Part shown: one piece after another, positions 26,654 through 29,716 of the stretch
Layout: every line of letters starts with the position of its first letter
How positions within the stretch are numbered: position 1 is the stretch's first letter
Assembly (NCBI RefSeq): GCF_947241125.1
Contig: NZ_OX365700.1
Span: forward strand, 2,388,001 to 2,452,000
DNA: 64,000 bases
DNA from: Nitrospira tepida
Lineage (GTDB): Bacteria; Nitrospirota; Nitrospiria; Nitrospirales; Nitrospiraceae
Direction: 5' to 3'
Notes under the pieces: model-generated
Databases searched by the model: none
Told to the model about the DNA's origin: nothing
What the model saw: only the letters and a program-made list of their open reading frames with translations
Position numbers and translations under genes: made by a program

Positions 26654-28102
26654 CTATATGCAGGTACTCGTGGGCGGGGTCGGGGGGCTAGCCTGTTGCC
26701 TCATGCCGGTGTCGATGATGTTCTTGGCTATCGCCCGACCGAGTGGCACCCCACCGATGTTATCGGAGGCTTGGAGCATTTTGCGCACGCTTTCTCCACT
26801 GGTCCCGTCAAACCGCCAATGTACCCCCAGGTAGATGCGACTGACGGAATTGTCATACATCGCTTCCGCCATGCTGTCATAGTGGCGTGCGTGACGTGTA
26901 CGGACAGATCCATCCTTCTCCGTGGTGATACCATTGAGTTCGTCGGAGACGAGCGTAAACCCGATAGTATCTTCGGTTTTCCGGTCGGTGTGCCCGTAGA
27001 ACAATCGCACCATCTCAAACGTGGCTGCGCCGAACGTGGCGTGTCCGCTTGGGTAAGCTGGAAAAGGCGGCGTAAAGCCCGATTTCAATTCATTGGAACG
27101 CGGGGCGCCAAGCGGCTTCCAAAATGGATCGCACGGCGGCGTGATTTTCTTATCCGGTGTCGCGGCTGGTCCGGTGGCTTTATCGTCTTCACGGATACCG
27201 ACGACAGGACGCCAGAGATCGAAGCAGTATTTCCAGTGCCAAGCGTGAATGCCTGCGTCACCCATGGCGCAATTGATCAGTGCAAAGAGCCGCGCGTTTT
27301 GTTCGGTGGTATTGCCCTTTGCTTTGACCACCTCCCGGACGATTTGATTGTAGAGGCGGGGAGGAGTTCCAATCTTATTCGCGCCATCATAAGCCCAATA
27401 GAGGCCAATGGCCGTTTGCTCGGGGCTGCGTGCCGTTGTATTGAGTTCCGGCGCGCCACCCCGTTCATACACTTCTTTGTAATCGTCCTTATACCTGGGG
27501 TCGGTCTTCGCGGGCGGAGGATCGAGTGGTTGCCAGGTCGTAACCGCGAAGCCAGGGGTTTTGCCATAGCCAACTCCCAGATAGCCTTGGGTCGTGTTGC
27601 AAGGGTCTACTCGATGGCGGAGTTGACCGGGGGACGAGACATGATCCGCGTCTTTCGGTATGACCTTCTCATCATCCTTTCGAGTGTCAAGCATTGCAAG
27701 TGCGACACGTCGCCCAAAGCTGAAGGCCGCGTCGTCTGTGCCATTGTTCGCGCTGATCTCAGCGAGTTTTTCCTCTATCCGTGCCCGCATACCTGAGTAG
27801 AGGGTACAGAGCGCTGTCGACGCGGCGCCGCCCACGGCAGCACTCCGATGGACCGGGGAGTTTCCTCCAGACCAAGCGGGCGGAGAAAGCAGATACAGAT
27901 TTTTAGGTGACGGGCCAGGACCTGGGATAGCCGCAACACCGGCTACGCTAAAGAAGGCGTCGTGCATCGCCAAGTGGACAATTGCGAGTGCACGGGAACT
28001 CAGGGTCGGCCCGCGCTGATGTTCGGCTTCCATGGCGCCAGTATGGTCAAGTCGATTGGCTTCCAGAGCGACTTCGTTCCAGAACAGTATGGGGTCTTGC
28101 AT
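26654..28102 (-). CDS. vanadium-dependent haloperoxidase / PAP2-type protein
   Basis: A 482-residue protein of the vanadium haloperoxidase/acid phosphatase superfamily. The three signature segments are present in order: KYCFDLWRP (K-x6-R-P), PSGHA, and SRIYLGVHWRFD (S-R-x3-G-x-H-x3-D). These bind vanadate or phosphate. Halogen oxidation is likely but cannot be separated from phosphatase activity by sight. There is no signal peptide from ATG 28102, which has AAGGAG 8 bases upstream; the longer frame to 28312 lacks support. Codon use looks less GC-biased than in neighbouring genes, suggesting horizontal transfer. Confidence 0.85.
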   Translation of the reverse strand: MQDPILFWNEVALEANRLDHTGAMEAEHQRGPTLSSRALAIVHLAMHDAFFSVAGVAAIPGPGPSPKNLYLLSPPAWSGGNSPVHRSAAVGGAASTALCTLYSGMRARIEEKLAEISANNGTDDAAFSFGRRVALAMLDTRKDDEKVIPKDADHVSSPGQLRHRVDPCNTTQGYLGVGYGKTPGFAVTTWQPLDPPPAKTDPRYKDDYKEVYERGGAPELNTTARSPEQTAIGLYWAYDGANKIGTPPRLYNQIVREVVKAKGNTTEQNARLFALINCAMGDAGIHAWHWKYCFDLWRPVVGIREDDKATGPAATPDKKITPPCDPFWKPLGAPRSNELKSGFTPPFPAYPSGHATFGAATFEMVRLFYGHTDRKTEDTIGFTLVSDELNGITTEKDGSVRTRHARHYDSMAEAMYDNSVSRIYLGVHWRFDGTSGESVRKMLQASDNIGGVPLGRAIAKNIIDTGMRQQASPPTPPTSTCI

Positions 28103-28529
28103 TCTGAATCTCCTTTCGGTGACGTATAAGTGAAATCCGGAGCCGGCTCGCGGAGCTTTGGGCAGGAAGAGACTCGGACGCAGCCTCCAATCGTGCCGTT
28201 CATTTGCGGCGAAGGAAATGCATTGACTATGCCGCGAAGGAATGCGGACAGACCGTGAGGAATGTAAACAGATTACTTGGCGTGGAGCATACAGAACAGG
28301 TGGGAAGCACAAATGGAAGAGAAGATAGTGAATCCGATTGGATACATCGTTGTATCTGATTCGATACCAGAAACAGGACTAAAAGCGGAATCCTGAGAAA
28401 CAGGATGGATCTCTTGTTGCCTCCCCCTCGTATGATTCATTCGTCTTTCAAATTGGTCTTGACGAGCGCAGAAAAACCTTCACGGTCGAGCCTCTGCGCA
28501 TGAGCCCATTGCACCAAGAGAAGACAACA
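28103..28529. other. gene-poor AT-richer stretch
   Basis: No convincing gene. The stretch 28250-28440 is visibly AT-richer than the window. A small hairpin (GATAC/GTATC around 28351-28366) and a 27-codon frame at 28313-28396 are seen, neither supported by more. It must hold the haloperoxidase promoter, which I cannot place with confidence. Confidence 0.4.
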
Positions 28530-29023
28530 GCGGGCTTGTTAGCCCGCATTATGCATGACGATTCGTGGCGTCGCACCCGTTGCAGTGAAAGAGCAACGGG
28601 TCCCCGGCAGTCGCCAGACGTTGGACCCATTGCATGTTCGACCCGTTGCATGGAGCAACCCGCAACGGGGCCCCCCGGCAATGGGTGCCCCCAGGCACAG
28701 CCGCGAAGGACCAAGGCGTACTTGAAACAGTACGTCGAGGGGCGCACGGCGCGATGAATAAAGATCGCCACGTCTGTGCGCGCCGCCGAGTCGGTGAGAC
28801 GGCCGGACCTGAGCGGCGAGCACGCCCGCCATACCAAGCTGCGCTTGAGCCGCCGCGTTCGATCACATCGCGGCGGAGAGGCACGTTGCCTTCGACTTCG
28901 CATGCTGGCCAGGGACCCGTTGAAATCTGGGAGCAACGGGTGCCCCGCGGCGAATCGGGGTGCCCCTTGCGCTTCTGTTGCAATGGGCCCAAGCAACAGA
29001 AGCGTTCATGAACAATGCGGGTT
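28530..29023. repeat. inverted-repeat-bounded non-coding cassette with CCCGTTGCA motifs
   Basis: The left end has a hairpin (GCGGGCT-TGTT-AGCCCGC, 28530-28547) running into AGCCCGCATTATGCATGACG (28541-28560). The right end, 29003-29023, reads as the imperfect reverse complement, AACCCGCATTGTTCATGAACG. Inside are repeated ACC(C)RTTGCA or TGCAAYGGG motifs in both orientations, for example at 28575, 28593, 28625, 28641, 28662, 28678, 28915 (partial), 28933 and 28978. Frames on both strands look non-coding. It resembles a MITE-like or otherwise mobile unit of about 0.5 kb, of a type I do not recognise. Confidence 0.6.
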
Positions 29024-29032
29024 AGGAGCCTG

Positions 29033-29716
29033 TCAGACGATCAGGCCGTCTTCCATGCGCAGGATGCGGTCTGCCTGGGCGGAGAGCTTTTCGTTGTGGG
29101 TGACGATAATGAAAGTGGTGCCGCGGCTGCGATTGAGCGTGCGCATCAAACCGAAGACGTCGTCGCCGGTATGGGTATCAAGGTTGCCCGTCGGCTCGTC
29201 GGCCAGCACGAGTTCCGGCCGCTGGATCAGGGCTCGGGCGATCGCAACCCGCTGCTGTTCGCCGCCTGACAGCTCGCCGGACTTGTGGTGGAGGCGCTCG
29301 CCCAATCCGACCTCTTGGAGCAGGCCGGTGGCTTCGGCTTCCGCCTGTTCCCTCGGCCGGTGCTGGATCAAGGCCGGCATGCAGGCGTTCTCCAGCGCCG
29401 TGAACTCGGGCAGCAGGTGGTGAAACTGGAAGACAAACCCGATCTTGCGGTTCCGAAACTCGGCCTGCTCCTGCTCGGGCAAGCGAAAGAGATCCTGCCC
29501 TTCAAAATACACGGTTCCCTGCGTCGGCCGGTCCAAGGTGCCGAGGATGTGCATGAGCGTGCTCTTGCCGGCTCCTGAGGCCCCGACGATGGCGATGAAC
29601 TCCCCCCGCGCGATTTCCAGGTTGATGCCGCGGAGGATCACCAGCTCCCGGCCGTTCATGGGAAAGGATTTGGTGAGGTTGACGACCTTGATCACGAAGG
29701 CACCGTTATGCGGCAT
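29033..29716 (-). CDS. lolD: lipoprotein-releasing ABC transporter ATPase
   Basis: A 227-residue ABC ATPase of the LolD/MacB type, which powers release of lipoproteins from the inner membrane. Walker A is GASGAGKST (about residues 49-57), the signature motif is LSGGEQQRVAIARAL, Walker B is LVLADEPTGNLD, and the H-loop is IIVTHN. It is the last gene of the lnt-prfB-lysS-lolC/E-lolD series, 75 bases after the permease. A slightly shorter start near VIKVVNLTKSF is possible. Confidence 0.92.
   Translation of the reverse strand: MPHNGAFVIKVVNLTKSFPMNGRELVILRGINLEIARGEFIAIVGASGAGKSTLMHILGTLDRPTQGTVYFEGQDLFRLPEQEQAEFRNRKIGFVFQFHHLLPEFTALENACMPALIQHRPREQAEAEATGLLQEVGLGERLHHKSGELSGGEQQRVAIARALIQRPELVLADEPTGNLDTHTGDDVFGLMRTLNRSRGTTFIIVTHNEKLSAQADRILRMEDGLIV

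Follow-up and report, generated by a model that had tools for sequence, protein, structure and literature searches.

A composite miniature element with IS1380-type ends and a rod-shaped core in the genome of Nitrospira tepida

The locus and the anatomy of the 479-bp element

The window, the 64,000-nucleotide stretch of the Nitrospira tepida genome analysed here, contains a half-kilobase block lying between two genes, both read from the minus strand. One of these (26654..28312) resembles a vanadium chloroperoxidase, with VCPO_N (Pfam, E 4.5e-16) and PAP2 domains, as the initial annotation had surmised in pointing to a haloperoxidase neighbour; the other (29033..29716) encodes the ATPase of an ABC transporter, LolD-like to judge by its sequence, and the element begins a few bases beyond the stop codon of that gene. 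The adjacency to the haloperoxidase gene is incidental, because members of the family described below adjoin many unrelated genes. No Pfam match was obtained for the open reading frames that run across the block, in keeping with the lack of a coding feel remarked on earlier.

The element occupies 28543..29021, with its structured strand on the plus strand of the window and antisense to both flanking genes. Its terminal repeats are 16-bp inverted ends of the CCCGCATTATTCATGA type, CCCGCATTATGCATGA at the left (28543..28558, plus) and TCATGAACAATGCGGG at the right (29006..29021, minus). TTAG stands immediately outside each of them (28539..28542 and 29022..29025), a target-site duplication that the statistics of the family support. 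The imperfect inverted ends of 20-21 bases that had been read from the sequence are real; they measure 19 nt (28540-28558 against 29006-29024, 84% complementary), with the ends proper at 28543 and 29021. At 479 bp, and with no transposase gene found by Pfam search of its ORFs, the element is within the size range of miniature inverted-repeat transposable elements (MITEs; below about 600 bp, without a transposase gene).

The repeats that drew attention to the block were also correctly counted: between 28530 and 29023, CCCRTTGCA or its complement is matched nine times when one mismatch is allowed (at 28576, 28592, 28626, 28642, 28661, 28677, 28916, 28932 and 28979). All four occurrences of ACCCGTTGC in the 64-kb window are within the block (0.51 expected; at most three in shuffled sequence). 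Just outside the element, GCATGAGCCCATTGCACCA at 28498-28516 is inverted with respect to 28976-28994 inside it (84%) and may be a remnant or a chance likeness.

Alignment with smaller relatives resolves the 479-bp copy into a core of about 191 bp, hairpin cassettes at four sites, one further hairpin nested in a cassette, and two modules, all listed here on the plus strand. Cassette A (28575..28601) is ACCCGTTGC-loop-GCAACGGGT, with a perfect 9-bp stem (28575-28583/28593-28601), in place of about 9 bp of core; cassette B (28625..28686), bounded by CCCATTGC and GCAATGGG, has the second hairpin in its loop (28642-28669). The apical hairpin of the core, GGCGTACTTGAAACAGTACGTCGAG, which is common to several phyla, follows at 28715..28739. 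The two inserted modules come next, one of about 67 bp (28743..28808) that is confined to the 346-479-bp subfamily and one of about 70 bp (28831..28904) that is present in the larger subfamilies and not in the 191-bp core. Cassette C (28912..28944) is GGGACCCGTTG-loop-GCAACGGGTGCC and cassette D (28957..28990), an imperfect hairpin, is GGGGTGCCCCTTGC-loop-GCAATGGGCC. A perfect 12-bp stem, CGCTTCTGTTGC/GCAACAGAAGCG, with an 11-nt loop, spans 28970..29004 (28970-28981/28993-29004). The 7-bp hairpin previously mentioned is an understatement: there are several stems, the perfect 12-bp and 9-bp ones among them.

Every cassette stands, in the alignment, in place of about 9 bp of core, and their joining was therefore not a clean insertion. 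The growth of this copy from about 191 to 479 bp would be accounted for by four entries of a smaller dispersed hairpin, of the CCCGTTGCA type, into the arms of the rod, together with the two modules of 67-70 bp. Other copies of the family hold subsets of the cassettes and modules, and their sizes often step by about 29 bp (191/220, 210/239, 263/292/320, 450/479). Sequence similar to the ~67-bp module adjoins a hairpin in another genome (locus L377).

A dispersed family and its IS1380-type ends

The block is a non-autonomous transposable element, a MITE, because it belongs to a multicopy family with shared ends, a 4-bp target duplication and empty sites. Searched against the 4.73-Mb genome that holds the window, the whole 521-bp query finds 82 matches, a 210-bp relative 47 and a covariance model 87. 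The end motif CATGAAYAATGCGGG (at most two mismatches) occurs 98 times per strand (1 and 2 in the reversed control). At least 71 copies, mostly of 76-480 bp, are complete; this census was drawn from searches and fetched stretches, and 71 is a lower bound. A single-copy remnant of an ordinary gene, the outcome that the initial annotation had named as contrary to its MITE reading, is accordingly not what the genome contains, and both the further copies and the target duplication that it had proposed to look for are there.

Left and right flanking tetranucleotides are identical in 39 of the 71 copies (partner shuffling gives 16, with a maximum of 28 in 10000 shuffles). Flank identity is limited to exactly four positions (59, 62, 56 and 61 of 71, and ~15-28 elsewhere), and the tetranucleotides are CTAG, TTAG, CTAA and TTAA, that is, YTAR. 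For family members in other genomes, the joined flanks align with uninserted sites bearing a single NTAG; the three clear cases, which concern those members and not the window copy, are L224 against L124 (two genomes) and the paralogous sites of L182 and L218. Some copies are 99-100% identical, and movement has therefore been recent. The position was intergenic in all 31 copies checked with a simple ORF test, the genes around copies being simple ORF calls, and no plasmid-borne copy was found at blastn sensitivity.

Two copies of 1335 and 1540 bp might have been taken for autonomous elements. They are instead MITEs into which one and the same IS110-family element (99.6% identity) has inserted, in both cases at an identical position in the rod, directly ahead of the apical hairpin (L061:952-2286, genome 4054451-4055785; L065:329-1868, genome about 2798829-2800371). 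The placement looks as if the IS110 guide had recognised the MITE.

The ends of the MITE match those of a group of IS1380 transposons. Related genomes carry IS1380 elements of 1.65-1.7 kb with the ends CTAG|CCCG(C/G)ATWATTC. The element at L233/L263 reads CTAG|CCCGGATAATTCAGGA ... TCATGAATAATGTGGG|TTAG and its protein is NCBIfam transpos_IS1380 (E 4.7e-111); L265 and L266 hold IS1380-family transposases between the same kind of ends; the element at L269 has a left end identical in 16/16 positions, CTAG|CCCGCATTATTCATGA, and the right end CGTGAATAATCCGGG|CTAG. Searches of the MITE's own genome turned up no IS1380 element from the clade that matches, so its MITE copies look orphaned. That genome does have four near-identical intact IS1380 copies whose ends differ from those of the MITE (CCCTATTCTCCGGCTAAG at L242, L252 and L260; genome 3751557, 1333097 and 3139240). 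The MITE copy at 2347338 has a truncated IS1380 some 70 bp away.

Since the interior of the MITE bears no resemblance to the regions just inside the ends of the IS1380 elements seen, the MITE did not arise from a known IS1380 by simple internal deletion. It was probably mobilised in trans by IS1380 and, since its own genome lacks a transposase of the matching clade, by a partner that would have been lost or foreign. An IS1380 transposase with the same 16-bp ends, supplied in trans, would recognise both ends of the MITE, cut it out, join it to a YTAR target (CTAG, TTAG, CTAA or TTAA) and duplicate 4 bp. The eukaryotic cousin of IS1380, piggyBac, likewise has CCC-starting ends and makes TTAA, TTAG and CTAA duplications (PMC10813416). 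The rod elements L414 and L428 of other genomes have the ends CCCGCATTTCTCACCAG, with changes matched at both ends; these paired changes suggest co-evolution with a different transposase.

The rod fold, the second hairpin and the alternatives

The interior of the ~190-bp core is a rod-shaped hairpin and not transposase sequence. It consists of a stem formed by the terminal repeats, arms broken by internal loops of nearly invariant tandem G.A, and the apical GGCGTACT/AGTACGTYGA hairpin. When thirty copies of the core, drawn from different genomes, are folded, the rod runs end to end with 96% of cells paired. Among these copies, from Nitrospira-type genomes, 19 of 55 pairs show compensatory changes, and there are 103 double-change cells against 34 in shuffled alignments; slid versions of the pairing come nowhere near. 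Across phyla, covariation is seen in 18 of 24 pairs. The loops are GA/GCA (columns 28-29/163-165), GA/GNA (49-50/143-145), NNA/GA (62-64/117-118) and GA/GA (70-71/110-111 and 78-79/102-103). Non-canonical cells of the inner rod pairs are G.T in 80 cases and A.C in 8 (25 and 6 columns). This excess of G.T indicates that the structure is carried by a single strand, on which GTTCGTCGCGA stands near the left end. The window copy has kept the apical part (covariance-model match at 28695-28740, E 3e-7) and folds far better than its shuffles (z -8.4). The rod would act as RNA or single-stranded DNA. Template switching on an imperfect palindrome could yield compensatory changes, yet it would be expected to erase mismatches, not to keep the G.A pairs.

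The same ends and apex extend well beyond Nitrospira. Exact ends occur in genomes labelled Myxococcota, Gammaproteobacteria, Acidobacteriota, Thermodesulfobacteriota, Eisenbacteria and others, most of them metagenome-assembled, so misbinning is possible. Against it, the interiors vary by host, and isolates of Wenzhouxiangella and Crenalkalicoccus also carry the ends. The apical hairpin GGCGTACT...AGTACGTYGA and the GA/GCA loop are common to gammaproteobacterial, lysobacterial and deltaproteobacterial copies, and in most of these the hairpin lies 79-80 nt from the left end; the pattern used finds no apical hairpin in the 161-bp type of Wenzhouxiangella and Mariprofundaceae. All well-resolved covariance-model matches that were inspected have transposon ends, L414 and L428 with their jointly altered ends among them; a few weak ones lack clear ends.

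The CCCGTTGCA repeats, in turn, are a second and independent dispersed hairpin, CCCRTTGC-N9-GCAAYGGG, that is found at four core sites of the window MITE, with one hairpin nested in another. CCCRTTGC-N(2-30)-GCAAYGGG occurs at 88 places in this genome (none in the reversed control) and in 27 of 61 relatives, with up to 124 per genome; several whole genera have none. Many of the copies are located outside MITEs. Position four of the stem covaries (45 G-C, 40 A-T, 3 G-T and 9 A-C of 97). In other genomes, protein-coding genes contain the hairpin in frame: 2-amino-3-ketobutyrate CoA ligase (KBL; L360) has nine extra residues, THCNQGAMG, relative to a solved homologue, TruB (L357) has about 33, and a radical-SAM-like gene (L358) is a third case by sequence reading. 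A hairpin in LeuRS comes with only four extra residues, pointing to replacement or a variable region. Pattern matches in EF-G (L379), branching enzyme (L373) and a PAPS-reductase-like protein (L346) were judged to be native protein sequence matched by chance and were not counted. Other dispersed repeats with shared flanks contain the CCCRTTGC or the GTACTT/GTACGTTGAGG hairpin (L342, L344, L375; L385, L386, L391, L394; L364, L372), so these hairpin modules are common to different repeat families.

Taken jointly, these features are very probably explained by a single insertion of a member of an IS1380-ended MITE family with a rod core, into which cassettes of the second hairpin have come. Alternatives to this explanation differ in what they put in the place of the transposase or of the MITE itself. 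A YTAR-type target preference is shared by the IS5 group and IS701, and an IS5-family ORF lies 380 bp from one MITE copy (L061). That a transposase of such another family with a 4-bp YTAR duplication moves the element is nevertheless improbable: it is IS1380 elements that have the MITE's ends together with its CTAG flanks, no correspondence with the MITE was established for the ends of the IS5 element near L061, and the DDE_5 transposase of IS701 (PF13546), rare in relatives, is absent from this genome, for which reason IS701 was rejected as a partner. The many small hairpins would fit a REP/REPIN-like array with a RAYT (Y1) transposase as its mover, and the genome has eight Y1_Tnp matches; given the variable YTAR tetranucleotide that is duplicated, the 16-bp end repeats, and Y1 gene neighbourhoods that hold the hairpin in no case, such an array is very improbable as an account of the element as a whole. 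An attC-type cassette of an integron, or a gene in decay, is scarcely credible. Inverted repeats in about 500 bp might be expected of either, but the copies are many, dispersed at unlinked places and flanked by target duplications, with no coding domain and no array arrangement. The recombination cassette entertained by the initial annotation is, in this integron sense, without support, and its MITE reading is borne out by the family, the end repeats, the target duplication, the empty sites and the matching IS1380 ends.

A different kind of alternative accepts the IS1380 ends and takes the rod to be first of all a structured RNA or single-stranded DNA with a function, be it regulatory, protein-binding or protective, its structure being no by-product of the MITE. 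The compensatory changes within and across phyla, the invariant tandem G.A loops, the strand-specific excess of G.T over A.C and the fixed 79-nt distance from left end to apical hairpin in most copies all speak for it. It is still rather unlikely. Every well-resolved model match that was checked has transposon ends; stable stem-loop transcripts are usual among MITEs (PMC10969869); no promoter of its own was identified; and the structured strand has no orientation bias relative to genes reading into the element (8 sense, 13 antisense), a finding that argues against its serving simply as a 3' UTR. In Rfam the block matches only P36 (E 0.18, under the gathering score), and ten family loci match nothing except an unrelated tmRNA. 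The repeat-rich RNA gene of the initial annotation is thus not established as a gene; what stands of it is the conserved, strand-specific secondary structure, which makes a structured nucleic acid a plausible property of the MITE. We would put forward only tentatively a fuller picture of the IS1380-mobilised MITE: a miniature family of several phyla in which a strand-specific rod, probably RNA, with repeated tandem G.A and a fixed end-to-apex length, is under selection in addition to the ends, and which has served as a landing pad for the second palindrome and for IS110. The selected role may be, for example, that of a protein-binding or transposition-assisting fold.

Relation to known repeats and transposons

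MITEs are normally seen as passive passengers of which the ends alone matter. The interior analysed here keeps strand-specific pairing and invariant G.A mismatches across phyla, so the interior of a MITE may have a job. In Nitrospira-type genomes these elements also account for a large part of the repeats and are unannotated; they provide markers for strain comparison and mark likely assembly breakpoints. In the open-access literature we found no account of a comparable MITE from Nitrospira or of IS1380 type; an earlier description is possible.

Small hairpin modules in variable number make up the mosaic elements BOX, BIME and RIME, to which the present composite is alike in that respect. In contrast, its sequences are different and its modules are contained in a transposon that duplicates 4 bp of its target. 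Nesting of BOX and RUP has been described (PMC10969869). With other prokaryotic MITEs (ERIC, Correia/NEMIS, RUP, QMITE2 of Coxiella) the family shares short, gene-less elements with terminal inverted repeats, target duplication, many intergenic copies and stem-loops; it is set apart by IS1380-type ends, YTAR targets, the hairpin cassettes of this copy, and an interior rod with repeated tandem G.A loops that is conserved by covariation across phyla. The in-frame occurrence of the second hairpin in protein genes is a behaviour best known from Rickettsia, whose palindromic elements are likewise small palindromes in frame (here in KBL and TruB, among few cases examined), but those are ~150 bp long, whereas the present hairpins are about 27-40 bp and unrelated in sequence. 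The IS1380 family itself is alike in the 16-bp CCC-starting ends and CTAG/YTAR flanks, near the TTAA, TTAG and CTAA of piggyBac (PMC10813416). Unlike its members, the element has no transposase gene, and its interior is unrelated to the IS1380 elements found; it is an IS1380 derivative by its ends and not an autonomous member of that family.
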